This document shows positions 20,939-34,107 of a DNA stretch of 34,802 nucleotides, piece by piece. The stretch spans positions 1 through 34,802 of IMG/VR virus record IMGVR_UViG_3300033149_001862, one strand, 5' to 3'. Numbering within the stretch: position 1 is the stretch's first letter; each line of letters opens with the position of its first letter. The notes beneath the pieces were generated by a model, which searched no databases, had not been told where the DNA came from, and saw only the letters and a list, made by a program, of their open reading frames with translations. Source of the stretch: a virus. Both the position numbers and the translations under genes were made by a program.

Positions 20939-21603
20939 TAGAGCCTCCACTTGGTTTTCTTGTGTTCGGGTTCGACTTCGTCTGCCCACCTACCTTGGCT
21001 TATCCACGTCTTGGGGTGTGGTATATATTGCCCATCATCCTTGGTCCATTGCTTCGATTTCTTCTGCTGCTCGATGGCCTCCAGAATGGTGTCGATGTCC
21101 GGCTTGTCTTTTTTTCGCAGCCACTCCCTCTTGGCCGCGTCCTTGCCGATCTTTCTGGGGTAGGCCGACCAGAATTTTTCAAAGTTGTCCTTGCACTGTT
21201 TCAGGGAAGGGGAATCAGGTTTCAGGAATCCGGAATCAGCAGGGCTAGTACTAGGCTTTCCCTGGGCTTGTCCCGGAATTTCCGAGGCTAGCCTCGTACT
21301 TTCCGAGGCTTTCCCTGGGCTTTCCCTGGGCTTTCCCTGGGCTTCAATGTTTTCAATTACTTGCGGGTCAGGGATCACCGATTCTGTTTCCCGATGATGG
21401 GGGTTTTGGTGCTTCAGGAAATTCTGCACCTGAATGTAACTTGAACCATCGACATTGTAGATGATGATAAACCCGGCATCATGAAGCTGCTTGAGAAGCT
21501 CCTCGACCTTGCTTGTCTTGATAAATAACAGTCTTCCAAGTGGCTCAATGTCTGCAAGATCCTCGTTCTTGAAAAATCCGGGCTTGATGTTTCTGGAGCG
21601 CAT
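20938..21603 (-). CDS. Replication initiator / helicase loader
   Basis: The protein has 221 aa. AGGAGG lies 8 bases before the ATG. The N-terminus (RSRNIKPGFFKNEDLADIEP) and QLHDAGFIIIYNVDGSSYIQ, then QNFLKHQNPH, are hallmarks of phage replisome-organiser proteins with a winged-helix DNA-binding domain. The C-terminal part (FEKFWSAYPRKIGKDAAKRE, then GQYIPHPKTWISQGRW) is the usual helicase-loader-like tail of this group. Between LGRLLFI and KTSKVEELLKQ, a segment of roughly 30 residues that family members carry appears to be missing in frame. The linker (about residues 85-120) is encoded by direct DNA repeats that look like iterons. It is the first gene of its unit and overlaps dnaB by one base. 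Confidence 0.8.
   Translation of the reverse strand: MRSRNIKPGFFKNEDLADIEPLGRLLFIKTSKVEELLKQLHDAGFIIIYNVDGSSYIQVQNFLKHQNPHHRETESVIPDPQVIENIEAQGKPRESPGKASESTRLASEIPGQAQGKPSTSPADSGFLKPDSPSLKQCKDNFEKFWSAYPRKIGKDAAKREWLRKKDKPDIDTILEAIEQQKKSKQWTKDDGQYIPHPKTWISQGRWADEVEPEHKKTKWRL
21254..21360. other. Putative replication origin: 11-bp iterons, palindrome and AT-rich flank inside the initiator gene
   Basis: GGCTTTCCCTG occurs three times in tandem at 21307-21339 (period exactly 11 bp) and once more at 21254-21264. Between them is the perfect 14-bp palindrome CGAGGCTAGCCTCG (about 21283-21296). An AT-rich stretch (TTCAATGTTTTCAATTACTT, 21343-21362) follows. The 11-bp period is not a multiple of three and matches one helical turn, so selection at DNA level is likely. 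Iterons beside an AT-rich element in the middle of the initiator gene is the arrangement of the lambda origin in gene O. Function is inferred from this layout. Confidence 0.6.
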
Positions 21604-21626
21604 ATCCCGGCCCTCCTAAAAGCCAA

Positions 21627-21671
21627 CCTCCCCCTGGCCGCGGCAATGGCGGGGACACGACCAGGGGGAGG
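21627..21671 (-). terminator. Leader hairpin between promoter and replication operon (possible attenuator)
   Basis: CCTCCCCCTGG (21627-21637) and CCAGGGGGAGG (21661-21671) form a perfect 11-bp stem with a 23-base loop in the minus-strand transcript. TTGGCTTTT follows before the AGGAGG of the initiator gene. It lies between the promoter at 21714-21742 and the first gene. The U-tract is only moderate, so it may be a weak terminator, a pause site or a protein/RNA-binding leader. Confidence 0.55.
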
Positions 21672-21713
21672 ATTTACGGCCTATCTGTATGCTTGCTTGC
21701 CATTGCGAGCCAC

Positions 21714-21742
21714 ATCATACACAGCCCACCACTCCTTGTCAA
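21714..21742 (-). promoter_or_regulatory. Strong sigma70-type promoter for the replication/late unit
   Basis: On the minus strand TTGACA (21737-21742) and TATGAT (21714-21719) are separated by exactly 17 bases. It is the best promoter match seen in the window. It would give a leader of about 100 bases that includes the hairpin at 21627-21671 before the initiator gene at 21603. Confidence 0.75.
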
Positions 21743-21786
21743 GCGCTTTCTTGCCGCGTATTTCCCTTCGCACCTGCGAACTTAGC

Positions 21787-21860
21787 TACGCACCGCCAAC
21801 CTGCCGAGATTGTTGTGCATGTGGGCAAACAGGTGCGTAATCGGTTACGCGGTTGGCGGT
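21787..21860. promoter_or_regulatory. Cluster of inverted repeats between the divergent units (possible operator)
   Basis: In the 330-bp gene-free region 21604-21933, several perfect inverted repeats lie between the two promoters. ACCGCCAACC (21792-21801) pairs with GGTTGGCGGT (21851-21860). TACGCACC (21787-21794) pairs with GGTGCGTA (21832-21839). GCGTAA-TCGG-TTACGC spans 21835-21850. A TACGC core recurs three times. Such dyads usually bind a dimeric regulator. No obvious repressor gene was recognised in the window, so the binder could be a host protein or an unknown early protein. The rest of the region holds the minus-strand promoter and leader and the plus-strand promoter. Confidence 0.5.
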
Positions 21861-21900
21861 TCGCGCCGCTGTAAGTGCCTGAAATCGTTAGCCCGCCCGG

Positions 21901-21928
21901 TTGGCACGCGGTATGCATGCAATATAAA
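21901..21928 (+). promoter_or_regulatory. Candidate promoter for the first plus-strand gene
   Basis: TTGGCA (21901-21906) and TATAAA (21923-21928) are 16 bases apart. The ATG of the next gene is at 21934, about where transcription would begin, and no Shine-Dalgarno is visible. This suggests a leaderless mRNA, or that the true start is further in. Confidence 0.45.
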
Positions 21929-21933
21929 GTGCT

Positions 21934-22320
21934 ATGGCAAGGCACCGAAAAATCAAGACCGTCAACGAGCTGGCCGGGCTGGCTGCCGGCCGCACCGTGT
22001 ATGTCCGCTATAGCCGCAGCATCGCCCGCGACATCAAGCGCGGCTACAGCCTCGACCACTCTCAGATGTCCCGGGAGCCGGGGCTGAGCGCCATGGACAT
22101 CAGGCCGGACGACTGGGACGAGGGACGTGGATGGATCGCGCGCCTGCTGGTGAGCTACGGGCACCTGAGATATGACGGTGCCCGCGCCTATGTGCTGACC
22201 GGCGAGGTGGCCGGCAAGACGGACATGGTGGAGTCGGCCGCCAACTACTCGCGGGCCGTGGCTCGCTGGCGTGAGGATTGTACCGGGCCGTGTCCGCGCC
22301 CGGAGGACTTTGACCTGTAA
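21934..22320 (+). CDS. DUF6098-like hypothetical protein, first early gene
   Basis: The protein has 128 aa. TVYVRYSRSIARDIKRGYSL, REPGLSAMDIRPDDWDEGRG and WIARLLVSYGHL, then AYVLTGEV, follow a pattern I associate with DUF6098 proteins (LYVRYS, GLSV, WLARQL, WVLTGE). The function of that group is unknown to me. It has a basic N-terminus and no membrane segment. The gene lacks a ribosome site upstream of its ATG and lies right at a promoter-like element. Confidence 0.65.
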   Translation: MARHRKIKTVNELAGLAAGRTVYVRYSRSIARDIKRGYSLDHSQMSREPGLSAMDIRPDDWDEGRGWIARLLVSYGHLRYDGARAYVLTGEVAGKTDMVESAANYSRAVARWREDCTGPCPRPEDFDL

Positions 22321-22358
22321 CCATGGCCGTGAAAGCGGCCGCTTAAGGGAGGTGCCAA

Positions 22359-22649
22359 GTGAAAACCGCCGTCCGCTACTTCGACGAGCTCACCGAAGTC
22401 CTGTGCACCGTCGCGCAGGCAACGCGCACCGGCCGCTGGCCTGCGGGATGGGATGCGCAAGCGGCCGCGCGCGTGCGCTGCTGGTTGGTGCGCCGGATAT
22501 TCGACGCGATGTCCAAGCTGCCGCCTGCGCCGCCTGAGTCCGATGACTGGCAGGAGCGAGTGAACCTGGTGGCCTGCACACAGGCGGTACGAGACCAGAT
22601 TGACCGGTTGCTGGACGCCGCACCGGTGTCAAGCTGCTGTAATCATTGA
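22359..22649 (+). CDS. Hypothetical early protein
   Basis: The protein has 96 aa with a GTG start preceded by AAGGGAGGT at good spacing. The helical product has VRYFDELTEVLCTVAQATRT, a Trp/Arg-rich middle (CWLVRRIFDAMSKLPPAPPE) and a Cys-Cys near the C-terminus. It lies in the short first early unit before the promoter at 22662. No family recognised. Confidence 0.65.
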   Translation: MKTAVRYFDELTEVLCTVAQATRTGRWPAGWDAQAAARVRCWLVRRIFDAMSKLPPAPPESDDWQERVNLVACTQAVRDQIDRLLDAAPVSSCCNH

Positions 22650-22661
22650 GAAACTTTTTTC

Positions 22662-22690
22662 TTGACAACGGCCGCCTTGCGTGGCATGAT
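22662..22690 (+). promoter_or_regulatory. Sigma70-type promoter for the main early operon
   Basis: TTGACA (22662-22667) and CATGAT (22685-22690) are separated by 17 bases and preceded by a T-rich stretch (ACTTTTTTC). No gene lies between it and the DUF7666-like gene at 22803. The 100-base leader contains the hairpin at 22724-22779. Confidence 0.7.
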
Positions 22691-22723
22691 GGTCCGTGCT
22701 ATGCGGGATTCAACACAAGCAAC

Positions 22724-22788
22724 AAGTCGCCGCCCGGTGGGTCCTGCCTCCCCCGCCCGCATAGCCCGGGCGGCGGCTTCCTTTTGTT
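22724..22788 (+). terminator. Leader terminator-like hairpin upstream of the early operon
   Basis: AAGTCGCCGCCCGG (22724-22737) pairs with CCGGGCGGCGGCTT (22766-22779) over 14 bases with one G-U pair and a 28-base loop. CCTTTTGTT follows. This is an intrinsic-terminator shape placed about 35 bases after the predicted transcription start and before the GGGAGGAACC ribosome site. It may stop early transcripts unless antiterminated, or define a small RNA of about 90 bases. Confidence 0.6.
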
Positions 22789-22802
22789 GACCGGGAGGAA
22801 CC

Positions 22803-23432
22803 ATGCTAGCCTGGCATTTCTTAAGAAAGGACGGCACGTCAGGTGCCGATAGAAAATACCGCCCCAGCGGCACGGAGGTTCACGACGGGCCGCTGGAGCT
22901 GTGCGAGATCGGCCTGCATGGCAGTCGCAGGGCGCTTGACGCGCTTGCCCACGCGCCTGGTCCGGTTGTCCGCCGAGTGGAGTTGGCGGGCAATATTATT
23001 GAGGGCAAGGACAAGGCATGCGCCTCAATCCGCCGCGAACTGTGGCGCCTTGACGCCACAGACATCCTGCGCAAGTTTGCGCGCTGGTGCGCCATCGGCA
23101 TGATCATCGGCCACTGGCCTGATGCGCCCGAGGTAGTTAGGCGGTGGCTGGCGACCGGAGATGAGTCGCTACAGGACGCCGCTGGAGACGCTGCTCGGAC
23201 CACCACCTGGACCACCCCCCAGTCCACTGCCCGAGACACTGCCAAGCATGCTACTTGGCAAGTTGCCTGGGATGCCGCCCGGCGAGCTGCCTGGGATGCC
23301 GCTGGGGTCGCCGCCTGGGGCGCCACAGGGGACGCCGCTTGGTGCACCGCCTGGGGCGCCGCCTGGGCAGCCATGAACTTCAAGCTGGAGTCCATGCTGC
23401 TCGACGCACGAAGGGAGAAATCATGTACGTGA
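22803..23432 (+). CDS. DUF7666-like protein with C-terminal Trp/Ala repeats
   Basis: The protein has 209 aa and GGGAGGAACC precedes the ATG. The N-terminal domain (LAWHFLRKDG, then ELCEIGLHGSRRALDALAHA, then PGPVVRRVELAGNIIEGKDK) matches my memory of the DUF7666 family (AWHFL, CE-GLHAS, DAL-YAPG, V-L-G). The family's function is unknown. From about residue 135 the sequence becomes AW-rich repeats (WDAARRAAWDAAGVAAWGAT and on) forming a low-complexity, probably helical tail. The same DNA read in another frame gives a Gly/Pro-rich collagen-like peptide, a by-product of the repeat. It starts the main early operon. Confidence 0.75.
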   Translation: MLAWHFLRKDGTSGADRKYRPSGTEVHDGPLELCEIGLHGSRRALDALAHAPGPVVRRVELAGNIIEGKDKACASIRRELWRLDATDILRKFARWCAIGMIIGHWPDAPEVVRRWLATGDESLQDAAGDAARTTTWTTPQSTARDTAKHATWQVAWDAARRAAWDAAGVAAWGATGDAAWCTAWGAAWAAMNFKLESMLLDARREKSCT

Positions 23433-23773
23433 TCGAAACTCCAAGCGGCCTGCGCCGCACCATGGGCGCGGTGCTGGTCTATAAATCCCGTGAAGCCGCC
23501 GCCGACGAGGTGGCCCGCTGCGCCGCCCCGGGCTCCGACTGGCGCATCTGGCCCGCCCGGCTCCAGGTGCAGCGTTACCGTGACCTGCCGTTGCCGGCCA
23601 AAGTGTCGGGGCCGGATGATATGGTCTGCGACGTGCATGTCACCGGCTGGAAGCGCGACGGCGGCGTGTTGCTGCGGCTGGAGCAGTCGAACGGCGAGCC
23701 GTGGCCGCAGTGGGAGCCGCTCGACCAGGTGAAGCTGATGGCCGAGGGACCGTACCCGTGGGAGGTGGAGTGA
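23423..23773 (+). CDS. Hypothetical early protein
   Basis: The protein has 116 aa. AGGGAGAAATC precedes the ATG, and the first 10 bases overlap the previous gene. The product has YVIETPSGLRRTMGAVLVYK and SREAAADEVARCAAPGSDWR, and a C-terminal strand-rich part (MVCDVHVTGWKRDGGVLLRL). It ends in TGATG overlap with the next gene. No family recognised. Confidence 0.7.
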   Translation: MYVIETPSGLRRTMGAVLVYKSREAAADEVARCAAPGSDWRIWPARLQVQRYRDLPLPAKVSGPDDMVCDVHVTGWKRDGGVLLRLEQSNGEPWPQWEPLDQVKLMAEGPYPWEVE

Positions 23774-23952
23774 TGAAGCTATATCACCTGTGCCTGATCC
23801 CAGAAAAGTTTCCATGGCCCCTTTACGACTGCATGCTCTCACTGATAGTCCGCGCCGAGGATGAGCAACAGGCGAGGGAGATCGCGCAAGAAAAGGCGGT
23901 TGACGAGGCGGACTGCCATCCAAGCAGGACCCCATGGCTTGACCCCGAGTAG
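23773..23952 (+). CDS. Small early protein with in-frame amber stop; coding sense continues to 24003
   Basis: The 59-aa frame starts in a TGATG overlap. The product (KLYHLCLIPEKFPWPLYDCM, then LSLIVRAEDEQQAREIAQEK) resembles small phage proteins with a VVRAEDE-AREIA core. After the TAG at 23950-23952 the same frame continues for 16 codons (TAAGEPGPIVVDVWEA) to TAA at 24001, and that tail looks like the normal end of this family (GEPGVVL-DF-A). The gene may therefore be a full-length version carrying a nonsense codon, or may use readthrough. The next gene's ribosome site lies in the extension. Confidence 0.65.
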   Translation: MKLYHLCLIPEKFPWPLYDCMLSLIVRAEDEQQAREIAQEKAVDEADCHPSRTPWLDPE

Positions 23953-24005
23953 ACGGCAGCCGGGGAGCCAGGCCCCATCGTTGTCGATGTCTGGGAGGCA
24001 TAACC

Positions 24006-24197
24006 ATGCCCTGCATGTGCGGTGCCCTTGACTGCCCCTCCTGTGGACCAGCCCAGGGAATGCCCACCTGCGAAGAGTGCGGCCGCGTGCTTGACTGTGA
24101 CGACTGCCCGGATCGGGAACGCTGCGAGCGCGGAGACGACGTGCCGTGCCTGTGCGAGCGGTGTCGCGATCCAGGGAAGGAGGTGTACGATGACTGA
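24006..24197 (+). CDS. Small Cys-rich, probably zinc-binding protein
   Basis: The protein has 63 aa with 12 Cys in several C-x2-C or near-C-x2-C pairs (PCMCGALDCPSCG, TCEECG, DCDDC, CLCERC). GGGAGG lies 7 bases before the ATG. It is likely to fold around two or more zinc ions. It overlaps the start of the exonuclease gene by 8 bases. Function unknown. Confidence 0.65.
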   Translation: MPCMCGALDCPSCGPAQGMPTCEECGRVLDCDDCPDRERCERGDDVPCLCERCRDPGKEVYDD

Positions 24198-25110
24198 GTT
24201 GAATATGGAACTCCGAAAGAAGGGCGTCACCGGCTCGGAGATTGCCGCGGTGGCGGGGCTCAATCCATACAGTTCTCCCGTCGAGGTGTGGGAGCGCAAG
24301 GTTGGCCTGCGCGATGAGCCGAAAGACAACTATCACATGCAGCGTGGCCGACACCTGGAGGCCGGCCTGCGTGCTTGGCTGGCCGAGCGCCAGGGATACG
24401 AGGTCCGCGAGGTGCCCACCCTGCAAAGCAAGTCTCATCCGCTGGTAATCGCCAGTCCGGACGGTGCGGCCTACGAGAAGAACAAACTGGTTGCCGCCGT
24501 CGAACTAAAAAGCCCGACCACCGGTCGCGACTGGGAACCGCCCGAGGTGAAGGCCGACGGTATTCCAATCTATTACCTGCCACAGGTTACCTGGGAGATG
24601 GCCGTGCTGGACATCGACCGGGCAGACGTAGCGGCGCTCATTGCTGGAAACCTTGCTGTCTACCACGTACACTTCAACCAGCGCCTGTTCGAGTTATTGC
24701 TACGAGAGGCCGAGAAATTCTGGCACTATGTAGAAAAACAGGAGCCACCCCCGCTCGACCACACAGACGCCAGCAAGCGGTTTCTGGAGCGCGAGTTTCC
24801 GCGCCACCAGACCGATGAACTGGTTGTTGCCGACACCGAAACAGAGGGGCTGATCCTTGAATACCGGGAAATACGCGCCAAGGCGGAAGAACTGGAGCGC
24901 AAGCGCAAGGAGATGGAGAATCTAATCAAAGCCAACATCGGCGACAAGGCTGGTCTGCGCGGCCCCTGGGGCAAGATAACCTGGAAGGCCACCAAGGATC
25001 GTACCAATATCGACCTGAAGGCCCTGCGGGCCGAGGTGCCCGAAATAGCCGAGCGGTACACCATAACCAAACCCGGCAGCCGCGTGCTGCGGGTCTACTG
25101 GGAGGATTGA
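24190..25110 (+). CDS. YqaJ-type viral recombination exonuclease
   Basis: The protein has 306 aa. AAGGAGGT precedes the ATG at 24190. GVTGSEIAAVAGLNPYSSPV and EVWERKVGL (residues 12-40), the catalytic SPDG (D91) and VELKSP (E105, K107) are the YqaJ/lambda-exonuclease active site (PD-(D/E)XK fold). The C-terminal 100 residues are a helical, charged region (REIRAKAEELERKRKEMENL). It digests double-stranded ends 5' to 3' to give a strand for RecT, encoded 3 bases downstream. Together they form a phage single-strand annealing pair like lambda Exo and Beta. Confidence 0.88.
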   Translation: MTELNMELRKKGVTGSEIAAVAGLNPYSSPVEVWERKVGLRDEPKDNYHMQRGRHLEAGLRAWLAERQGYEVREVPTLQSKSHPLVIASPDGAAYEKNKLVAAVELKSPTTGRDWEPPEVKADGIPIYYLPQVTWEMAVLDIDRADVAALIAGNLAVYHVHFNQRLFELLLREAEKFWHYVEKQEPPPLDHTDASKRFLEREFPRHQTDELVVADTETEGLILEYREIRAKAEELERKRKEMENLIKANIGDKAGLRGPWGKITWKATKDRTNIDLKALRAEVPEIAERYTITKPGSRVLRVYWED

Positions 25111-25113
25111 GCC

Positions 25114-26199
25114 ATGGCAAAGAACCAGGACAGGCAACTAACAATCTCCGAGTTGCGCGGGGCGCTTGCAGGGATCAAGAGCCACATCGAGCAGGCCCTG
25201 CCGGCAACGGCCCGGAGGTATCTCACGCCCGAGCGAGTGACAAAGATCGCGTTAATGGCAATCAGTCGCCAACCGATGCTAATGGCCTGCACCAGGGAGA
25301 GTATCCTGCGGTCGGTCATGGACGCCACCACGCTGGGCCTGGAGCTTGGCGGGCCGCTCGGCCAGGCATACCTTGTGCCCTACCGCAACAAAAACACCGG
25401 CCGCCTGGAGGCAAATTTTATCATCGGTTACCGCGGCCTGATTGCGCTTTCCCGGCGCAGCGGCGAGATTCAGAGCGTCAACGCCAACATCGTCTACGAG
25501 AAGGACACGTTTGAAATCGACCTGGGCAGCGGTGAGCCGCCGAAGCATATCCCGTATCTGGACGGCCCCCGCGGAAAGCCCCGGCTGGTTTACAGCATCG
25601 CCCGATTCAAGGATGGCGGCATGCATGTCGAGATGATGACCATGGATCAAGTGGATGCCATCCGTGAGCGCAGCCGTGCCAAAAACAATGGCCCGTGGGT
25701 CACCGACTACGAGGAAATGGCCCGTAAAACCGTGGTGCGTCGGGCCGCGAAGTATTGGCCTATCAGTATCGAGATGGCCGAGGCGTTGGCTATGGAGGAT
25801 CGCGCCGAGGGTGGGGACGTGATTGACGCCGAGTACACCGAGCAGGCCGTTGAGCAGGCGGCAAGCCGTACCGACGAAGCCATCGAGGCGTTGACTGCCA
25901 ACGAAGGCAAACTGCCAGCCGACGACACCGAGCCCGAGAAACCCAAAAAGCGAAGCCGCAAGAAGGCCGAGCCCGACGTCACCAAGCGCAAGGCCGAGAT
26001 CGCGCAGCACATCCTTGACATGGCCCGCACCGCCGGCTGGTGCGAGACCATGGACGAGTTGTTGGCCACGCTCAAGGACAACGGGCAGGTGGCGGCGGAC
26101 CTGAAAGACCTGACTCACCTGGCGACCGATGAGCTGGAAAAGCTGGCCGACGACGTGGAGCGGGCGTGCGTGCCACCCGAGCAGCAGGAGCTGGTGTGA
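25114..26199 (+). CDS. recT: RecT-family single-strand annealing protein
   Basis: The protein has 361 aa. GGGAGG precedes the ATG 3 bases after the exonuclease stop. The RecT core spans about residues 20-230: ALMAISRQPMLMACTRESIL, then SVMDATTLGLELGGPLGQAY, LVPYRN, FIIGYRGLIALSRRSGEIQS and ARKTVVRRAAKYWPIS, all typical of the family. A Lys/Arg/Glu-rich linker (PEKPKKRSRKKAEPD) leads to a C-terminal helical part absent from minimal RecT proteins. Pairing with the YqaJ nuclease upstream indicates a homologous recombination module. Confidence 0.9.
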   Translation: MAKNQDRQLTISELRGALAGIKSHIEQALPATARRYLTPERVTKIALMAISRQPMLMACTRESILRSVMDATTLGLELGGPLGQAYLVPYRNKNTGRLEANFIIGYRGLIALSRRSGEIQSVNANIVYEKDTFEIDLGSGEPPKHIPYLDGPRGKPRLVYSIARFKDGGMHVEMMTMDQVDAIRERSRAKNNGPWVTDYEEMARKTVVRRAAKYWPISIEMAEALAMEDRAEGGDVIDAEYTEQAVEQAASRTDEAIEALTANEGKLPADDTEPEKPKKRSRKKAEPDVTKRKAEIAQHILDMARTAGWCETMDELLATLKDNGQVAADLKDLTHLATDELEKLADDVERACVPPEQQELV

Positions 26200-26465
26200 T
26201 GGGCCTGCTCGACCGTGCCCGGGAACTGGCAGCCACGTGGCGAAGCATTGGTGCCAGCGAGACGGCTGACGTGCTAGCCAAGCTTGTGTTAGAAGTAGAG
26301 AGGCTGACGAAAGCGGTAGAAATAATGATACCGTCAGCAGCGGCAGACGCTAGGTGTCCACCTCCCTATTATGGGAAGGGATGTGCATATAATGACGGCG
26401 AATTCACCCTGAAACAAATAGACGATCCGTGCCTCGTCTGCTGGCGCCGGTGGCTGGAGGGATGA
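26199..26465 (+). CDS. Small protein ending in CxxCWxxWLE, paralogous to the gene at 30482
   Basis: The protein has 88 aa with a TGATG overlap with recT. The N-terminus is LLDRARELAATWRS and the C-terminus CLVCWRRWLEG, with further Cys in CPPPYYGKGC. The gene at 30482-30868 shares the RARELAA start and the CRKCWQEWLE end, so the two look like diverged copies of one module. It is probably zinc-binding. Function unknown. Confidence 0.65.
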   Translation: MGLLDRARELAATWRSIGASETADVLAKLVLEVERLTKAVEIMIPSAAADARCPPPYYGKGCAYNDGEFTLKQIDDPCLVCWRRWLEG

Positions 26466-26467
26466 CC

Positions 26468-26671
26468 ATGACCTGTCCCGAGTGCGGACGCCGTTTTGAT
26501 TCGTGGCGCGCCCTGAGCCAGCATGTCAACCGCGGTTGCCCGGCGGCGCTGTACGACTGCTTCGTGGACGGCGAAGACGTGGCCGTGCTGGCCCGGCGGT
26601 TTCGGCAGAGCAGCCAAGTGGTTTGGCAGAAGATCAAAAGCTGGCGCGTGCAGTTGGAGGTGGGGAGATGA
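26468..26671 (+). CDS. C2HC zinc-finger protein with DNA-binding-like C-terminus
   Basis: The protein has 67 aa. TGGAGGGATG precedes the ATG at 26468; another ATG at 26462 overlaps the previous stop. CPECGRRFDSWRALSQHVNR plus a following GC makes a C-x2-C-x12-H-x4-C zinc finger. The rest (VDGEDVAVLARRFRQSSQVV) resembles a helix-turn-helix of the sigma or resolvase type. It is a plausible small DNA-binding regulator of the early operon or host genes. Inferred, not recognised as a named family. Confidence 0.65.
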   Translation: MTCPECGRRFDSWRALSQHVNRGCPAALYDCFVDGEDVAVLARRFRQSSQVVWQKIKSWRVQLEVGR

Positions 26672-26940
26672 AATCATCCTTGCCACCGCTAGAAGTCGGG
26701 CTCCGCGACTTGGAGCGCAAACTGGTGCTATTCTGGACACGCATGGCGTGGGTGGAGGAATCCCTCGACGAAGCCGCAAGGTTGTGGCTCGACAGGCATC
26801 CAGGCGCCACAACTGGGGATCTGGTAGTCAATATTCACCCTGACGGTGTTCATGAATTGGTGGTTGCTGACGGGTCGAAATACGGGGAGGGGATTGTTGT
26901 GGTGCGAATAGACCCGGACGACTGGAGGGATGAGAAATGA
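26668..26940 (+). CDS. Hypothetical early protein
   Basis: The protein has 90 aa with an ATGA overlap with the previous gene and GGAGGTGGGGAG upstream. It has a helical N-terminal half (PPLEVGLRDLERKLVLFWTR) and a strand-like C-terminal half (ATTGDLVVNIHPDGVHELVV), ending VRIDPDDWRDEK. No family recognised. Confidence 0.65.
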   Translation: MKSSLPPLEVGLRDLERKLVLFWTRMAWVEESLDEAARLWLDRHPGATTGDLVVNIHPDGVHELVVADGSKYGEGIVVVRIDPDDWRDEK

Positions 26941-27539
26941 AACCCTACTGCTCCGACTGCACCCACTACCGCCCGGGCCGGCATTGCCCCATCACCGGCC
27001 AACCCTTTCTGGGCAGTCGCCAGGCGTGCGCACAGTTCCGGCCGCTCAAACTGCCCCCGCTGAGCGACATGGATGCCCAGCATGTCGGCCGCCGGCTGGC
27101 CGCGGAGATGCTGCTGTGCGCACTACGCGACGACGCCAAGCGATACCGACCGCGACAGTCGGGCGAGTACCGGGCCGACCGCTGGGTGCAGCGCGTGAAC
27201 GAACAGCCCCCGGGCTTCGACTGGTGCTGCAACGTGCTTACCTTAGAGCCCGGCTGGTTGCGTGGCCGCTGGTCCCGGCTGGTCGGCCTGTGTCGTGAAC
27301 ACGGTGGCCCCGGCAGGGTTCGGCATGTATTCGTGGCCGCCGCCCGCCGGCAGGGGATGAGCTGGGCCGAGGTAGAGGACCGCTGGGGCCTGCCCAGCAA
27401 GGGGTTTTTGTACGGCAAGGTTGAAGACGACCTGCCGGATGAAGAATTTGTACGCAAGCTCGATGCCGCGCTGGCCCGGCTGGAGAACCCGGGGAACAGC
27501 AACCCTAACAGGTTTTTGATGCTCAGGAGGGCGGGGTGA
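26937..27539 (+). CDS. Hypothetical protein with N-terminal Cys/His metal site
   Basis: The protein has 200 aa with an ATGA overlap. The N-terminus (YCSDCTHYRPGRHCPITGQP) has C-x2-C and further Cys and His that may hold zinc. The rest is helical (RRLAAEMLLCALRDDAKRYR) with a C-terminal AARRQGMSWAEVEDRWGLPS segment that could be a helix-turn-helix. Function unknown. It overlaps the next gene by 4 bases (GTGA). Confidence 0.65.
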   Translation: MKPYCSDCTHYRPGRHCPITGQPFLGSRQACAQFRPLKLPPLSDMDAQHVGRRLAAEMLLCALRDDAKRYRPRQSGEYRADRWVQRVNEQPPGFDWCCNVLTLEPGWLRGRWSRLVGLCREHGGPGRVRHVFVAAARRQGMSWAEVEDRWGLPSKGFLYGKVEDDLPDEEFVRKLDAALARLENPGNSNPNRFLMLRRAG

Positions 27540-27745
27540 CAAAGGCCAAGATTCCTAATGTGGTACTAACAGTTATCATCGCTGATGATCAGCCACTTGT
27601 CATATTCGGCGACCCACCGACGCACCGAAGCGTTCGGCTGGAACTCACCGAAGAGCAAAAGAAAGCGCTAACACTCGATGCGAAGCACGAAAGAATATCA
27701 CACTGCTTCCTGGAGGATGTAGATCATGACCAAAACATGCGGTGA
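27536..27745 (+). CDS. Hypothetical early protein
   Basis: The protein has 69 aa with a GTG start in a GTGA overlap, preceded by GGAGGGCGGG. It begins with two strands (NVVLTVIIADDQPLVIFGDP) and ends with charged helix. It overlaps the next gene by 20 bases. Not recognised. Confidence 0.55.
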   Translation: MTKAKIPNVVLTVIIADDQPLVIFGDPPTHRSVRLELTEEQKKALTLDAKHERISHCFLEDVDHDQNMR

Positions 27746-28121
27746 GTGTCCGTGGCTGAAATTCGCATCCGTCATGCTTGATGGCGATGGGGCCTTGTTT
27801 GATGGAGTGCCAGTAGGGGAATGTCGCTTTGGTGTCAACGCTGGACGATTGGCCACAGATCCCGTATGCACCGCCCGCCGCGCCTTCGAGGTTCTGCGCG
27901 ACGAGGTGCGGCGGTTGCGGGCGGAAAACAAGAGGCTGGTTAGCATGGTGCTATCCGTCCACCCATGTTTCGGCTACTTCGACAGTGGCGTATCTTCGTG
28001 CGACGACCACGGCCCGGAAGATTGCACCACCAAAGAATCGGGCGAAACATGGAACACTTGTCCGTATGGCCGGTTGTCGCCCCAATACGTGCGCTTGATG
28101 GATAAGGAGGACGACGAATGA
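27726..28121 (+). CDS. Cys-rich hypothetical protein
   Basis: The protein has 131 aa. GGAGGATGTAGATC precedes the ATG. TCGECPWLKFA at the start has a C-x2-C, and further Cys and His are in HPCFGYFDSGVSSCDDHGPE and NTCPYGRLSPQ. A helical middle (FEVLRDEVRRLRAENKRLVS) looks like a short coiled coil. A zinc-binding role is likely, but no family is recognised. It overlaps the resolvase gene by 4 bases. Confidence 0.6.
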   Translation: MTKTCGECPWLKFASVMLDGDGALFDGVPVGECRFGVNAGRLATDPVCTARRAFEVLRDEVRRLRAENKRLVSMVLSVHPCFGYFDSGVSSCDDHGPEDCTTKESGETWNTCPYGRLSPQYVRLMDKEDDE

Positions 28122-28555
28122 CCACCCTCGCCATCGACCCGGGCAAACGCTCCGGCTGGTGTCTGCTGTGGAACGACAAGCCCACCTCGGGCGTCGTCGA
28201 CGGAGACGACCTGCCCGCCGTGTGGGCGGTGCTCGACGAGGCGGCGCAGTTTTCCCTGGGCGGGCTGACGGTGGTCATCGAGGACCAGTACCACGCGCGC
28301 ATGCGCGGCCAGGGCCTGACCACCCTGTTTCGCCGCCGGTTCGCGTGGGAAATTCTAGCCCGCTGGTTGGACCTGCCGGTGAAGATAGTTCACCCGATGA
28401 CTTGGCAGAGCTACTTCAAAATCCGCAAGGGCGACAAGCAGGGCATCTGCCAGGTGGCCCGCGCACTGTGTGGCTACGACGTCGAGCAGGACGAAGCGGA
28501 TGCCGTGTGCATGGCGTACTGGAGGGAGATGCGGAGGTCCCATGAATCCAACTGA
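28118..28555 (+). CDS. RuvC-like Holliday-junction resolvase / RNase H-fold nuclease
   Basis: The protein has 145 aa with an ATGA overlap. TLAIDPGKRSGW carries the first acidic residue (D7), TVVIEDQY the second (E55) and DEADAVCMAYW the last ones (D125, E126, D128), in the order of RuvC-type RNase H-fold nucleases. The length (about 145) is like phage RuvC-type resolvases. It probably cuts branched DNA made by recombination or replication before packaging. All expected acids are present. Confidence 0.82.
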   Translation: MTTLAIDPGKRSGWCLLWNDKPTSGVVDGDDLPAVWAVLDEAAQFSLGGLTVVIEDQYHARMRGQGLTTLFRRRFAWEILARWLDLPVKIVHPMTWQSYFKIRKGDKQGICQVARALCGYDVEQDEADAVCMAYWREMRRSHESN

Positions 28556-29288
28556 AAAGCGCACGTCCAAGGGCCTCTGGTGGGACCGTGCGTGGAGCCT
28601 GGTGGACGGCTGCACCCCGGTCTCGGAGGGGTGCGCACACTGCTGGTCTGCCTCGATGGCCCGACGGTTCGGTAAGGACTTTTCCAATGTCCGCCCTAAG
28701 TGGGACCGGTTGTCAAGGCCGTATGGAGTCTCCAAGCCCGCAGTGTGGGCGGTGTGGAACGACCTGTTTCACGAGGAAGCCCCGCCAAGTTTCATTGAAG
28801 CCGCTATCAGGGTCATGCGTAACTGTAAACATCACTTGTTCCTGGTGCTCACCAAACGGCCCGAAAGGGCAATGTTCGTTCTCCACGAGCTTGACCTGCC
28901 AGACAACCTTTGGCTCGGCGTCACCGCCGAGAACCAGAAGCAGGCAGACAAGCGCATCCCGGTGCTGCTGCGGATTCCGGCGGCCAAGAGGTTTGTTTCG
29001 GTCGAGCCGATGCTGGGGCGGGTGAAGTTGGGCGATATTCAAGACGGTACCGGAGGGATAATAAAACCACTTTGTGGTCTACACTGGCAACCGACACCGA
29101 GTAGCTGGCCACATCAGGGGTTGACGGTGCTTGAGCCGGTTAGTTCTAACAAGCGGCCGATGGATCTCCAGTGGGCGCGCGACCTGCACGAGCAGTGCCA
29201 GGAGGCCGGCGTGCCCTTCTGGTTCAAGCAGGACGGCGATGGCAACAAAACTCTGGACGGAAAGGTGGTGAGAGAATGGCCGAGCTGA
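28542..29288 (+). CDS. DUF5131 (Gp37/Gp68-like) protein
   Basis: The protein has 248 aa from the ATG at 28542 (GGAGGTCCC upstream), with 14 bases overlapping the resolvase. GCTPVSEGCAHCWSASMARR is the three-Cys motif of the phage Gp37/Gp68 group (DUF5131), and WNDLFHEE, FLVLTKRPERA, WLGVTAENQKQADKR and SVEPMLGRV are other conserved blocks. The family resembles radical-SAM/photoproduct-lyase proteins but its reaction is unknown. Family members usually have a GGESG block before RPM. Here the corresponding stretch reads LTVLEPVSSNKRPM. Confidence 0.85.
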   Translation: MNPTEKRTSKGLWWDRAWSLVDGCTPVSEGCAHCWSASMARRFGKDFSNVRPKWDRLSRPYGVSKPAVWAVWNDLFHEEAPPSFIEAAIRVMRNCKHHLFLVLTKRPERAMFVLHELDLPDNLWLGVTAENQKQADKRIPVLLRIPAAKRFVSVEPMLGRVKLGDIQDGTGGIIKPLCGLHWQPTPSSWPHQGLTVLEPVSSNKRPMDLQWARDLHEQCQEAGVPFWFKQDGDGNKTLDGKVVREWPS

Positions 29289-29542
29289 TCAAAACGGTCA
29301 AGATACTTGAGTTCACCGGCGGCACCGGCCGCTGGCGTGATGCGCGGGCTACGGTGGTCCGCGAGTACAAGGTCAAGCGGGTTGGCTGGACCGACGAGCA
29401 GCGTGTCACCGAGTGGTGTGACAAGGGCGACCGGGAGATTGCCCACAGTTGGTTCGACTGGCTGAAAAAAGGCGGTGTCCCCTGCGCCCTGGTCGAGGTG
29501 GCCGGGCATGGGCTGGCCGTGTACCGGGAGCCGGTGAGATGA
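29276..29542 (+). CDS. Hypothetical early protein ending in EPVR
   Basis: The protein has 88 aa and overlaps the previous gene by 13 bases. Strand-like VKILEFTGGTGRWRDARATV and KKGGVPCALVEVAGHGLAVY suggest a small alpha/beta protein. It ends YREPVR. The last 16 bases and the next start codon (GGAGCCGGTGAGATGAA) recur at the next gene junction. Not recognised. Confidence 0.6.
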   Translation: MAELIKTVKILEFTGGTGRWRDARATVVREYKVKRVGWTDEQRVTEWCDKGDREIAHSWFDWLKKGGVPCALVEVAGHGLAVYREPVR

Positions 29543-29790
29543 ACAAGAGCGACATCATCGAGAAGATCAAAAAAGAAGCCGGCCGCCTGCGGGAAATAGG
29601 GGGCGGCAAGACCCCAATTGTAACCATGGGCGCAACCGCATTTACAGACCTCGGGCTGGCAGATGTTGACCTGGGGTGCGAGGTTGAGATTGACCACTTT
29701 TGCCCGATTCAAAGGGTGTATGTCACGTACAAGGGAGCGCGACAGATAGACAAAAAGTGGCTGATGATCGTAAAGGAGCCGGTGAGATGA
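29539..29790 (+). CDS. Hypothetical early protein ending in EPVR
   Basis: The protein has 83 aa with an ATGA overlap. The N-terminus is a charged helix (SDIIEKIKKEAGRLREIGGG) and the rest has short strands. It ends VKEPVR, as the preceding gene ends with EPVR. This and the shared 17-bp junction suggest a recombination or duplication boundary. Function unknown. Confidence 0.6.
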   Translation: MNKSDIIEKIKKEAGRLREIGGGKTPIVTMGATAFTDLGLADVDLGCEVEIDHFCPIQRVYVTYKGARQIDKKWLMIVKEPVR

Positions 29791-29990
29791 AGCCCTACCA
29801 CTGGACGGGCAAACGAGGCTGCGGTCTCTACGGCTACCACCACAAGGGCCGCCGTCGCATGGACGCCATGGTCAGCCGTGAGTGGTATGGCTGGGCCGTG
29901 GTTCTTATGGTCAACCCAGCGACCGGGAGGCGGTGGACGATCAAGGACGGCAAGCGGTTCGTCGAGCGGTTGTACGGGGGGACAAAATGA
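29787..29990 (+). CDS. Hypothetical basic protein
   Basis: The protein has 67 aa with an ATGA overlap. It is Lys/Arg/Tyr-rich (KPYHWTGKRGCGLYGYHHKG), with a strand-like WYGWAVVLMVNPATGRRW segment and a basic C-terminus. No domain recognised. GGAGCCGGTGAG precedes the ATG. Confidence 0.55.
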   Translation: MKPYHWTGKRGCGLYGYHHKGRRRMDAMVSREWYGWAVVLMVNPATGRRWTIKDGKRFVERLYGGTK

Positions 29991-30277
29991 CCATCTCCGA
30001 ACTCAAGCGGTTCATTGACGGCCCGTTGGCGGTGTACCTGGCCGGCGAGGCCACCTACAGCCGGTTTATCGAGCTGCTGCGTCACGAGTTCCCCGAGATG
30101 GGCGTCCGGTACGCACACCTGTATCCCCGGCTGTTCAACTTGGACGCCCGGGCGCCGGATGACCCGGAACTTCCCTGCTGGGATGTGTGGGCGGCAGCCG
30201 AGAAATATCTGGAGAAGGTCGGCCCGGTTGACGCCGGGGCACTCAAGCGGGCGCTGGAAAGGAGGCGGAAGCCATGA
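29987..30277 (+). CDS. Hypothetical early protein
   Basis: The protein has 96 aa with an ATGA overlap; GGGGGGACAAA precedes the ATG. It is a helical product (ISELKRFIDGPLAVYLAGEA, then TYSRFIELLRHEFPEMGVRY) with a basic C-terminus. No named family recognised. Confidence 0.6.
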   Translation: MTISELKRFIDGPLAVYLAGEATYSRFIELLRHEFPEMGVRYAHLYPRLFNLDARAPDDPELPCWDVWAAAEKYLEKVGPVDAGALKRALERRRKP

Positions 30278-30495
30278 GCGAGACGGGAACACCCACCGAC
30301 CACGACGGGGCGGAGATGTCCATGTTTCTGGCGCGGCTCAACTCAGAGGTGCGCGATTTTTTGGCCTGCCTGTTGCCGTCACAAGTACCACTTGGGGTAT
30401 ACAGAAGGCTTGTCGATGACGTGGCAGACCTGATACGGGAACGATGCATGGTGGTGACCTTCCCCGACAAGGAGGACGACCATGAAAATTCTTGA
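30274..30495 (+). CDS. Hypothetical acidic protein
   Basis: The protein has 73 aa with an ATGA overlap. It is acidic and helical (MSMFLARLNSEVRDFLACLL, then LVDDVADLIRERCM). It overlaps the next gene by 14 bases. Not recognised. Confidence 0.55.
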   Translation: MSETGTPTDHDGAEMSMFLARLNSEVRDFLACLLPSQVPLGVYRRLVDDVADLIRERCMVVTFPDKEDDHENS

Positions 30496-30868
30496 GCGGG
30501 CACGGGAGTTGGCGGCCCTGGCCGAGAAGGCGACCAGAGGGCCGTGGAGGGTTGGCAAGTGTTACGGCGCCGTGGTTGCAGACTACCCTATTGGTGACGT
30601 GAGAGGGGCCGACGATGACAACGCGGTGGCTGACTACGGTGGGCACCTGGTCGGCGAAAGCATAAGCTCCAAGAATTGCCCGCTCATCGCCGCCGCCCCC
30701 GAGATGGCCGAACTGTTGGGCAAGCTGGCCGATAAGCTGGAGGAAGGAATAAAAGAGATACCGAATGCATGTCCGCCGCCGCTATCACAGACTCCGCCGT
30801 GGTGTCCGCGCACAGATGATATGCACGGAAACTGTCGCAAGTGCTGGCAGGAGTGGCTTGAGCGATGA
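30482..30868 (+). CDS. Ead/Ea22-like early protein with C-terminal Cys motif
   Basis: The protein has 128 aa. AAGGAGGACGACC precedes the ATG. LAEKATRGPWR and NCPLIAAAPEMAELL are the core pattern of the phage Ead/Ea22-like group (ATPGPW, IAAA-P). The C-terminus (CPPPL, WCP, NCRKCWQEWLE) matches the gene at 26199. In lambda-like phages ead genes are non-essential early genes of unclear function. Confidence 0.65.
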   Translation: MKILERARELAALAEKATRGPWRVGKCYGAVVADYPIGDVRGADDDNAVADYGGHLVGESISSKNCPLIAAAPEMAELLGKLADKLEEGIKEIPNACPPPLSQTPPWCPRTDDMHGNCRKCWQEWLER

Positions 30869-31056
30869 CCATCCTCGACCGTTGGCTCGACCAGCCGAAG
30901 CCCAGCCCGCTCACCCGCTCGCGGGCAATCAGGCTCAAGTGCTTGGACTGCATGGGCAACCAGCCGGCCGAGGTGGCCAGGTGCCCGGTGCGTCGCTGCC
31001 CGCTCTGGCAGTACCGGCTGGGGCGAAAGGCGGCGGTGGCCGGGGACTGGGAGTGA
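30865..31056 (+). CDS. Small zinc-binding-like protein with basic N-terminus
   Basis: The protein has 63 aa with an ATGA overlap. RAIRLKCLDCMGNQPAEVAR followed by CPVRRCPLWQYRLG has two C-x2-C or C-x4-C pairs, a pattern common in small phage proteins. It is probably a zinc ribbon. The next gene starts 2 bases after its stop. Confidence 0.65.
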   Translation: MTILDRWLDQPKPSPLTRSRAIRLKCLDCMGNQPAEVARCPVRRCPLWQYRLGRKAAVAGDWE

Positions 31057-31058
31057 AT

Positions 31059-31493
31059 ATGCTGCATCTACAGCCCATTACATACAAAGAGGCGTGTGAA
31101 TTTATCAAAAGGCACCACCGACACCACCTTCCGCCTCAAGGGTGGAAATTTGGCATTGGCGTAAACGACGGCAAAAGAATAGTTGGTGTAATTACGGTAG
31201 GCAGGCCGGTGGCTAGATGCCTCGATGACGGATGGACGCTAGAAGTTACAAGGTGCTGCACTGATGGGACAAAAAATGCACCATCAATGTTATATGGCGC
31301 TGCGCGCCGGGCTGCATTTGCCCTTGGATACAAGCGCATTATCACATACATACTCAGAAGCGAACCGGGAACATCCCTAAAAGCCAGCGGCTGGAAATTG
31401 ATCGGCACCGCCGGCGGTGGGACATGGAACAGGAAAAGCAGGCCGCGGGTTGATAAAGCACCAACCGGGCAAAAACTTCTGTGGGAAGGCTGA
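31059..31493 (+). CDS. XF1762-like protein (GNAT-like fold), last early gene
   Basis: The protein has 144 aa. GGGAGTGAAT precedes the ATG at 31059. FIKRHHRHHLPPQGWKFGIG, ITVGRPVARCLDDGWTLEVT, RCCTDGTKNAPSMLYGAARR and ALGYKRIITY are the conserved blocks of the XF1762 family found in phages and bacteria, which has a GNAT-like fold. Its substrate is unknown. It ends the early unit next to the converging late genes. Confidence 0.82.
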   Translation: MLHLQPITYKEACEFIKRHHRHHLPPQGWKFGIGVNDGKRIVGVITVGRPVARCLDDGWTLEVTRCCTDGTKNAPSMLYGAARRAAFALGYKRIITYILRSEPGTSLKASGWKLIGTAGGGTWNRKSRPRVDKAPTGQKLLWEG

Positions 31494-31590
31494 AACGCCC
31501 CTGATTCCTGAAAAAGTGCCGAAACGGGGTGGTTTTTGGAACCGGGAGGCCGGGAAAAAGCCCTTTTTCGTTTTCGTGCCCCCCGGTAGC
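31494..31590. terminator. Probable bidirectional terminator region between converging units
   Basis: In the 111-bp gap, CGCCCC (31496-31501) pairs with GGGGTG (31526-31531) and is followed by GTTTTT on the plus strand. A second stem, CCGGGAGGC (31542-31550) with GCCCCCCGG (31578-31586), has one mismatch and flanks an A-tract/T-tract pair (31552-31570). The plus-strand early and minus-strand lysis transcripts meet here. The stems are modest, so exact terminators are uncertain. Confidence 0.4.
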
Positions 31591-31604
31591 GCCAGCCCCC
31601 AAAA

Positions 31605-32012
31605 TCACCGAATTTGCATACCCACCACGACACCGGCGCCGAGAACCACGCCGATTGCTACTCCCAGCGCCCCCCATATCCACCTATGCCGGCGGTATTC
31701 TTCAGCTTTTTCTTCCGCCACCGCCACCTTCCCCCGCTCTACCGCCAGGTCCAGGCCGCCCAGCTGCCGGCACTGCTCCAGGTCGGCCCGACAGAGCCCG
31801 GCGGCCCGGTAGAGTTCGGCGCAGCCGGTCAGCGCGGTGATCAGCGCCGGACGCTCGCACGGGGCGTACATGCCCTGCACCTGGCAGCGGCCAAGCAGTG
31901 CCTCCACGTCGGCCAGCCGGGCCTCGAGGTCGGGCTGTGGTCGGCTGGCGGCCGGCCGCACATGGGCGCAGGCGGACAGCAACAGGGCGAGCACCAGGGC
32001 CAGCCTACTCAT
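31605..32012 (-). CDS. Probable unimolecular spanin (lipoprotein with C-terminal membrane segment)
   Basis: The protein has 135 aa. MSRLALVLALLLSACAH is a lipoprotein signal with lipobox LSAC (Cys at about residue 15). The C-terminal 25 residues (RWIWGALGVAIGVVLGAGVV plus VGMQIR) are a transmembrane segment. A protein anchored in the outer membrane by lipid and in the inner membrane by a helix is the design of the T1 gp11 u-spanin, which fuses the two membranes at the end of lysis in Gram-negative hosts. It has six periplasmic Cys. It is the last gene of the lysis cluster. Confidence 0.75.
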   Translation of the reverse strand: MSRLALVLALLLSACAHVRPAASRPQPDLEARLADVEALLGRCQVQGMYAPCERPALITALTGCAELYRAAGLCRADLEQCRQLGGLDLAVERGKVAVAEEKAEEYRRHRWIWGALGVAIGVVLGAGVVVGMQIR

Positions 32013-32133
32013 CGCCCAACCTCTCCCGTATCGCGTCCACCAGATTGTCCGCCCGCTCGTTCACGCGCTCCCGCTCGGCCTCGGCGTGGGCGCGGATGCG
32101 CTCCCGTTCGGCCTCCACGCGCCGAGTGTCCAC
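32005..32133 (-). CDS. Small charged helical ORF between the 83-aa gene and the spanin; start uncertain
   Basis: A frame open to the stop at 32005 encodes a strongly charged helix (DTRRVEAERERIRAHAEAER, then ERVNERADNLVDAIRERLGD). Codon third positions are almost all G or C, as in neighbours, so it is probably translated. The GTG at 32133 has no ribosome site. Upstream the frame is still open and overlaps the end of the 83-aa gene, whose own frame ends at 32150. This may be the lost C-terminus of that gene after a frameshift. The TAG overlaps the spanin ATG (ATGAGTAG). Confidence 0.5.
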   Translation of the reverse strand: MDTRRVEAERERIRAHAEAERERVNERADNLVDAIRERLGDE

Positions 32134-32149
32134 CCGGGGGGCGACGGGC

Positions 32150-32401
32150 TCACGGTTCGGGCCCCACCACGGGCAGGCCGAGCAACCACCACCGACGGCG
32201 CTTGGCCCAGTCGAACAGTCTGATATACCAGGGCTTTTCCATTTTCAATATCTCCTTGATCACCACCCGGACGAAGCTGGGCGACCAGCCGTGCAGCAGC
32301 TCTTCGTCGAACACCACTGCCGTGTAGTCGTCCTGTCCCCAGGTGGTCGCGTGCCAGTCGGCCCGCAGGGGGCGGGGCAGGTCACAGACGGCGCCGGTCA
32401 T
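32150..32401 (-). CDS. Hypothetical protein in the lysis cluster
   Basis: The protein has 83 aa. The ATG at 32401 is in an ATGA overlap with the zinc-ribbon gene and has AAGGGGGA upstream. The product has RADWHATTWGQDDYTAVVFD and VRVVIKEILKMEKPWYIRLF, then a basic Trp-rich end (WAKRRRWWLLGLPVV). It could be membrane-associated near its C-terminus. The frame ends at 32150 while a +1 frame stays open into the charged helix at 32005-32133. Confidence 0.6.
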   Translation of the reverse strand: MTGAVCDLPRPLRADWHATTWGQDDYTAVVFDEELLHGWSPSFVRVVIKEILKMEKPWYIRLFDWAKRRRWWLLGLPVVGPEP

Positions 32402-32601
32402 GGTTCCCCCTTGTGCCCGCACCAGGGACACCGGCCGGGCACGTGCGGCCGCCCGCACTCGGGACAGGTTTCGAGCGGCAAATACCCGGGGTCCGGGCGG
32501 ATGGGGTAGCGGCAGATCGAGCACGGGTAGCCGACCTGCTGGATGGTCCCGCACTTGGGGCAGGTGGTGGTTCTGTGCTGTTTACGCAAGCCAGCCATCA
32601 T
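32398..32601 (-). CDS. Zinc-ribbon protein
   Basis: The protein has 67 aa with four C-x2-C pairs (CPKCG, CSIC, CPECG, CPWCG), enough for two zinc ribbons. It begins with a double Met (MMAGLRKQHRT). The start overlaps the 35-aa frame by 20 bases and the end overlaps the next gene as ATGA. Its role in a lysis cluster is unclear. Confidence 0.65.
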   Translation of the reverse strand: MMAGLRKQHRTTTCPKCGTIQQVGYPCSICRYPIRPDPGYLPLETCPECGRPHVPGRCPWCGHKGEP

Positions 32602-32689
32602 CGACCCCGCCGTGGAGGAAAAAGAGCCGGGCCAAAAGCCAAGCCGCGAGGAATGGGAGCACGACGAGCAGGCACAGCAGGTCGCGCAT
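32582..32689 (-). CDS. Small single-membrane-segment protein
   Basis: A 35-aa frame begins at ATG 32689, two bases after the holin stop (TAGGCATG). MRDLLCLLVVLPFLAAWLLA and then RLFFLHGGV form one hydrophobic helix. It is short and could be a holin partner, an antiholin or an inner-membrane accessory. There is no strong ribosome site, so translation may be coupled to the holin. Confidence 0.45.
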   Translation of the reverse strand: MRDLLCLLVVLPFLAAWLLARLFFLHGGVDDGWLA

Positions 32690-32691
32690 GC

Positions 32692-32883
32692 CTATCGCCC
32701 CCCGGCGACCTTCTTGACCTTCTGAATGGTGATGCCCGTGGTCCAGATGGCTACGAAGCCACCACAGGCGGCCGCCCATTCGGTGAACGACACCTTGTCC
32801 ATGGTGAACAGGGCCACCGAGGCCACGACCATCAGGGCCAGGCTTACCAGAAATTCACGACTCAGGAACTTTCGCCAGTCCAT
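32692..32883 (-). CDS. Putative holin (two membrane segments)
   Basis: The protein has 63 aa. CGGAGGTAACCC precedes the ATG. Two hydrophobic segments (FLVSLALMVVASVALFTM at about residues 11-28 and WAAACGGFVAIWTTGITI at about 36-53) and a Lys/Arg-rich end (QKVKKVAGGR) give a class II holin profile. Such proteins make the inner-membrane hole that releases the endolysin. It is the first gene after the promoter and terminator at 32898-33011. Confidence 0.7.
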   Translation of the reverse strand: MDWRKFLSREFLVSLALMVVASVALFTMDKVSFTEWAAACGGFVAIWTTGITIQKVKKVAGGR

Positions 32884-32897
32884 GGGTTACCTCCGAG

Positions 32898-32942
32898 AAA
32901 AAAGGCCGGCCGCTACCTCGCATCGCGATCCAGCGACCAGCC
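32898..32942 (-). terminator. Intrinsic terminator between the lysis promoter and the holin gene
   Basis: On the minus strand GGCTGGTCGCT (32942-32932) pairs with AGCGGCCGGCC (32914-32904) over 11 bases (two G-U pairs), with a 17-base loop containing the palindrome ATCGCGAT. TTTTTT (32903-32898) follows. It is the best terminator in the window. It ends about 15 bases before the holin start and about 35 bases after the predicted transcription start, so it acts on the leader. Confidence 0.8.
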
Positions 32943-32981
32943 CCGTGCCGACCGCCCAGCCACGAGTCAATCGGCTCAAGC

Positions 32982-33011
32982 ATTGTAACACCACCGTCTC
33001 CGAACTGTCAA
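32982..33011 (-). promoter_or_regulatory. Sigma70-type promoter for the lysis genes
   Basis: On the minus strand TTGACA (33006-33011) and TACAAT (32982-32987) are separated by 18 bases. The 293-bp gap 32884-33176 holds it and the terminator. The rest (33012-33176) has no convincing gene. A 63-aa frame there, in line with the endolysin beyond its TAG, is poorly supported. Confidence 0.7.
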
Positions 33012-33889: not shown

Positions 33890-33919
33890 CTTGTCCCCTC
33901 CGTGCGGCCCCCCTGTGGT

Positions 33920-34096: not shown

Positions 34097-34107
34097 CGTG
34101 GGCCTCC

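Follow-up and report, generated by a model that had tools for sequence, protein, structure and literature searches.

How does RNA polymerase reach the first genes of a phage when a terminator-like hairpin stands between the promoter and the start codon? The question is raised by the virus record IMGVR_UViG_3300033149_001862, analyzed at its full length of 34,802 nucleotides (nt) and referred to here as the window. Three sigma70-like promoters (P1, P2, and P3) are each followed by a strong hairpin and then by the Shine-Dalgarno (SD) sequence and ATG of a gene. A first-pass annotation of this DNA had proposed that one and the same leader is used three times as a single antitermination or attenuation switch. 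According to our analysis, leaders 1 and 2, standing before the replication initiator gene and the first early gene, may attenuate transcription close to the promoter by means of their own RNA. We consider this reading tentative and assign it a probability of about 45%. Leader 3, standing before a likely holin gene, is built differently.

The promoters and hairpins were found where the first-pass annotation had placed them. P1, P2, and P3 rank first among the promoter sites listed for the window and are the only ones there with a perfect TTGACA; a further 10/12 site at 23643 on the minus strand has GTGACA. The hairpins of leader 1 (21671-21627, minus strand; 16 pairs, -33.4 kcal/mol), leader 2 (22724-22779, plus strand; 14 pairs, -32.7 kcal/mol), and leader 3 all show the stable GC-rich stem of intrinsic terminators (-27 to -33 kcal/mol). 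Scanning of the whole genome yielded eight T-tailed hairpins with E ≤ -18 kcal/mol, the three leader hairpins being the strongest when leader 3 is counted with its full stem. They were missing from the list of a simple terminator scanner because it was limited to loops of at most 8 nt, and their loops are longer. Since the genome's strongest promoters and hairpins coincide with start codons three times, it is secure that the coincidence of promoter, hairpin, and start codon goes far beyond chance. The hairpins head the replication/late, early, and lysis units, the first genes of which encode the initiator, a DUF7666 early protein, and the likely holin. The location and strength of the hairpins lend good support to the view that, in each unit, transcription must get past one of them to reach the first gene. 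Repeated use of the same leader did not hold, as no sequence is shared beyond 7-8-mers; the three represent one layout, not one repeat. Pairing in trans among the leaders gave just long imperfect duplexes of GC-rich RNA.

Leaders 1 and 2 contain an element, S1, that was overlooked in the earlier annotation. The predicted 5' end of the transcript (S1a) is perfectly complementary to the terminator loop (S1b) over 8 base pairs (bp) in leader 1 and 10 bp in leader 2. With the 5' and 3' arms of the terminator designated S2a and S2b, the order in both leaders is S1a-S2a-S1b-S2b, which is interleaved and pseudoknot-like (Table 1). In both, S1a starts 8 nt past the -10 element, and S1b abuts S2b with zero spacer. 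In 3000 dinucleotide shuffles per leader, the complete arrangement never attained the score observed. When only the 5' part upstream of S2a was shuffled, an S1 of the observed length appeared in 2.7% of cases for leader 1 and in 0.03% for leader 2.

The same order was later found in two diverged viral contigs, L037 and L004, ahead of initiator genes that had been located by tblastn; the sequences are unrelated. In L037, the promoter TTGACA-17-CATACT is followed by an S1 of 12 bp including one G-U (CTGTGGAAGGAC/GTCCTTCCACGG; 11 Watson-Crick pairs), a strong terminator, and TTTTTT. The AT-richer L004 has the promoter TTGACT-18-TATGAT, an S1 of 10 bp including one G-U (GAATCTCGAT/GTCGAGATTC; nine Watson-Crick pairs), a terminator, and TTTTTT. 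Recurrence was counted among 47 distinct leaders with promoter and terminator, drawn from approximately 2 Mb. An S1 of at least 8 Watson-Crick pairs was present in four leaders vs. 0.54 expected, of at least 9 in three vs. 0.13, and of at least 10 in two vs. 0.03; the four are exactly leaders 1 and 2 and those of L037 and L004. With both window leaders excluded, at least 9 pairs were still observed in two cases vs. approximately 0.1 expected. Scan scores were 57–63 for leaders 1 and 2 and L037 and 43 for L004; the control records HK022, P4, and HK639 were weak (31–39). A second candidate in L037, at 3856, was rejected as probably a chance product of GC-rich DNA. These counts suggest that the S1 element is likely real; four examples are few. 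Alternatively, S1 in leaders 1 and 2 might have arisen merely from GC richness and the freedom of the search, and the hairpins would be plain leaky terminators that lower expression; the frequency with which shuffles matched leader 1 would favor this. Such an origin is very improbable in view of the rarity of the leader 2 helix in shuffles, the geometry common to both leaders, the two later cases, and the excess of helices with at least 9 pairs. The window phage, L037, and L004 share little protein sequence besides the initiator and DnaB, so no common regulator stands out.

When the RNA was folded up to S1b, S1 was the minimum free energy structure in leader 1 (-16.4), leader 2 (-26.1), and L037 (-22.5). 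With S2b added, the minimum switched to the terminator (-37.8, -37.5, and -38.5, respectively). The prefix folds of leaders 1 and 2 hold an alternative pairing that precedes the terminator, as is characteristic of attenuators. In the mechanism that we infer, host RNA polymerase would initiate at the strong sigma70 promoter of leader 1 or 2, and, once S1b emerges, S1a at the 5' end of the transcript would pair with it and enclose S2a in the hairpin loop. S2b would emerge directly afterwards, without a spacer, and the terminator would have to form inside or through the S1 hairpin. As long as S1 persists, S2 would be delayed or topologically hindered, and the polymerase would run past the T tract and transcribe the initiator or early genes. 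Loss or invasion of S1 would allow the far more stable S2 to form, and an RNA of approximately 90 nt would be released. The outcome would be set by whatever occupies or frees S1a. This could be a protein that binds RNA, a leader or antisense RNA, or a ribosome positioned on a start codon in S1a.

Small open reading frames (ORFs) start in S1a of both window leaders. The one in leader 1 (21703-21674, minus strand; MASKHTDRP) ends ahead of the terminator, and the one in leader 2 (22701-22790, plus strand; 29 codons, MRDSTQATSRRPVGPASPARIARAAASFC) passes through it. Start codons can also be read in the sequences of L037 (GTG within S1a) and L004 (ATG overlapping S1a). With such starts, S1 could be coupled to ribosome binding. 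A common ribosome-stalling scheme was dropped because the small ORFs of leaders 1 and 2 end differently relative to the terminator.

Several points weigh against attenuation in leaders 1 and 2. Both S1 helices were first spotted by eye, and leader 1 alone reaches only 2.7% under the stricter shuffling. S1 and S2 share no bases, as S1 pairs with the loop and not with an arm; their sequences permit both at once, and a pseudoknot of the two might aid termination. In the prefix fold of L004, a neighboring 5' helix (GGGTGAGA/TCTCACCC) takes the place of S1. Approximately 100 other initiator loci are without the S1 element, mostly because the gene lies within an operon. Initiator relatives in approximately 100 viral contigs and 41 genome contigs were mostly intra-operonic genes without a leader, and in named Pseudomonas phages the gene lies within a lambda-like operon. 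The protein encoded behind leader 2 has two relatives (L156 and L157), neither with this leader. No close relatives were obtained by megablast or distant blastn against phages and plasmids or by viral-contig searches with DnaB, terminase, likely holin, and portal; the collections searched contained no homologous leader from a close relative that would permit a strict covariation test. Finally, termination in leaders 1 and 2 may be weak, given their poor T tracts. Between coexistence of the two helices and interference, our model favors the latter: S1 would hinder S2 by kinetics and topology, resulting in antitermination.

The quality of the terminators bears on a further explanation. By the d'Aubenton-Carafa score (threshold approximately 0), the terminator of leader 3 is strong (d = +33.0, uninterrupted T6), and those of leaders 1 and 2, owing to interruptions in the T tract (TTGGCTTTT and TTCCTTTTG, respectively), are marginal (d = -4.3 and -9.8). 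The first-pass annotation had noted six T's for one hairpin and a good T-rich tail for another. The interrupted tails and sub-threshold scores of leaders 1 and 2, and the position of every hairpin just ahead of an SD sequence, would suit elements of the 5' untranslated region that serve mRNA stability, insulation, or translation and are no terminators, the helices being hairpins or pseudoknots. We consider this quite unlikely: T tracts are clear and scores positive in leader 3, L037, and L004, and in the latter two the interleaved architecture itself sits on clear T-tract terminators.

A single switch for all three units is unlikely because leader 3 is without the S1 of leaders 1 and 2. Its 5' hairpin (matched by 0.028 of shuffles) and its weak alternative pairings (0.36 of shuffles) are near chance, and no alternative fold to its terminator was significant against shuffles. 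Judged by its sequence, leader 3 combines a promoter with an ordinary, strong terminator, and transcription would need another way past it. A layout resembling that of leader 3 was observed in L193 (Pseudomonadota REEB109), in which, upstream of 2050, a short hairpin is followed by a strong terminator with T7 standing directly before the initiator start codon.

Leader 3 would be covered by protein-mediated processive antitermination, either of the lambda N/Q type or by a new factor, in which polymerase modified near each promoter ignores the terminator. The succession of promoter, terminator, and gene is that of lambda pR'-tR', and many early proteins of the window have no family. However, N, Q, and NusG-like proteins were not recognized in scans of the early (three frames), lysis, and replication regions, from which small Arg-rich N-like proteins would escape; this agrees with the first-pass annotation, which had recognized no N- or Q-like gene. 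Besides, the leaders contain no boxA (best 4–6 mismatches of 12), the three have no sequence in common, and S1 would be left unexplained. We regard this explanation as unlikely. The read-through factor postulated earlier on the precedent of lambda N/Q (new, RNA-encoded, or host-derived) is not supported as a protein of that type, and the evidence in leaders 1 and 2 points toward attenuation by the leader RNA.

The promoter-hairpin units could also be small-RNA genes, the RNAs of approximately 90 nt acting in trans and the downstream genes being expressed on readthrough. Their compact promoter and terminator and the exposed loops would fit this, and Gifsy-1 IsrK is a phage precedent for the use of a terminated short RNA together with its readthrough mRNA (PMC4825925). 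On the other hand, no Rfam covariance model matched the leaders at the gathering score, and the complementarity of S1b to its own 5' end points to a role in cis first; this explanation is rather improbable.

It is doubtful, and less probable than attenuation in leaders 1 and 2 as such, that the interleaved leaders represent an undescribed class of phage leader RNA, in which the extreme 5' end would pair with the terminator loop just before the 3' arm and time or gate its own terminator, at initiator genes of diverged phages and here also at the early operon. No description of the S1/S2 arrangement was found in the literature searched, many subscription papers lying outside the search. If such a class exists, these phages would control the start of replication and of early expression through an RNA decision that needs no protein and falls within the first 90 nucleotides. 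The scheme is computationally easy to spot: promoter, S1a, S2a, S1b, S2b, and T tract.

The record carries an exact 114-base terminal direct repeat (1-114 and 34689-34802), and a minus-strand ORF is continuous across its joined ends; it is therefore probably a complete genome that closes into a circle of 34,688 bases, though classed as linear. On the minus strand, the replication genes (initiator, DnaB) are followed by terminase, portal, capsid, further long ORFs, and endolysin. From 21603 down to 353 and then from 34739 to 33177, the replication, head, long-ORF, and endolysin genes apparently form one same-strand unit behind P1, and this coupling of replication and late genes is unusual. Just 3' of the DnaB gene, 18943-19461 (minus strand) matches phrog_645 (annotated "RNase E"; 1.9e-26). 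The plus strand carries recombination genes (YqaJ/RecE, RecT, RuvC-like) and a gene for a Mom-like DNA modification protein (30765-31493; phrog_1384, 1.2e-39), and the phage DNA may be modified. Two small plus-strand genes between P1 and P2 (21934-22320 and 22359-22649) are possible regulators; the protein of the first has a DUF6098 domain (2.8e-13). The phage may be virulent, since integrase, CI-like repressor, and excisionase were not recognized in the genome regions scanned.

Table 1. Features of the three leaders and their adjoining genes in the window.
Feature	Position	Strand	Remarks
Promoter P1, TTGACA-17-TATGAT	21714..21742	-	11/12 matches
Leader 1 S1a GCAATGGC, predicted transcript 5' end	21699..21706	-	
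Leader 1 S2a, terminator 5' arm CCTCCCCCTGGTCGTG	21656..21671	-	
Leader 1 S1b GCCATTGC, terminator loop, abutting S2b	21643..21650	-	perfect 8-bp complement of S1a
Leader 1 S2b, terminator 3' arm CGCGGCCAGGGGGAGG	21627..21642	-	
Leader 1 interrupted T tail TTGGCTTTT	21618..21626	-	weak tail, d = -4.3
SD AGGAGG of initiator gene	21617-21612	-	
Replication initiator gene, first of replication/late unit	20938..21603	-	phrog_16167 1.1e-29, phrog_270 3.6e-29
Promoter P2, TTGACA-17-CATGAT	22662..22690	+	10/12 matches, TG ahead of -10
Leader 2 S1a GCTATGCGGG, predicted transcript 5' end	22698..22707	+	
Leader 2 S2a, terminator 5' arm AAGTCGCCGCCCGG	22724..22737	+	
Leader 2 S1b CCCGCATAGC, terminator loop, abutting S2b	22756..22765	+	perfect 10-bp complement of S1a
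Leader 2 S2b, terminator 3' arm CCGGGCGGCGGCTT	22766..22779	+	
First early gene, DUF7666 N-terminal domain	22803..23432	+	PF24703 7.9e-7
Promoter P3, TTGACA-18-TACAAT	32982..33011	-	11/12 matches, TG ahead of -10
Leader 3 5' hairpin GCCGATTG...CGGTCGGC, not interleaved with terminator	32947..32975	-	2.8% of shuffles equally stable
Leader 3 terminator hairpin	32904..32942	-	about -27 to -29 kcal/mol; then T6 at 32903-32898
Likely holin gene, 63 amino acids, two hydrophobic stretches	32692..32883	-	from position and sequence; no family match
Endolysin gene	33177-34124		upstream neighbor of likely holin gene

Among known systems, the Q-dependent pR'-tR' leader of lambda resembles the leaders described here in that a terminator separates a strong promoter from the genes. 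In lambda the terminator lies approximately 200 nt from the start, whereas here it lies approximately 75–95 nt from it, no Q-like protein was found, and an extra interleaved helix is present. The put element of HK022 is a structured RNA close behind an early promoter that requires no phage protein. The leaders resemble put of HK022 and HK639 in having structured RNA close behind the promoter; however, put acts on downstream terminators, and comparison with the annotated HK639 putL-like RNA gave just 7-8-nt matches. Gifsy-1 IsrK is likewise a unit of phage promoter and terminator (PMC4825925), but it controls the translation of a small ORF via a distant helix, a pairing that is not part of the candidate scheme. 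In pT181, a terminator stands just upstream of the start codon of the initiator gene repC, and the rep attenuators of pT181 and pIP501 share with the leaders a terminator hairpin directly 5' of the initiator start codon and an alternative upstream pairing able to block its formation (PMC5703833). In pT181 the pre-emptor pairs with the 5' arm of the terminator and a counter-transcribed RNA sets the outcome, whereas here the loop beside the 3' arm is the predicted partner of the transcript's 5' end, and the leaders show no convincing antisense promoter (none at ≥7/12 for leaders 1 and 3, a weak 8/12 match for leader 2). If our reading is correct, the purpose of these phage leaders would be akin to that of plasmid copy-number attenuators, achieved by a different pairing scheme.

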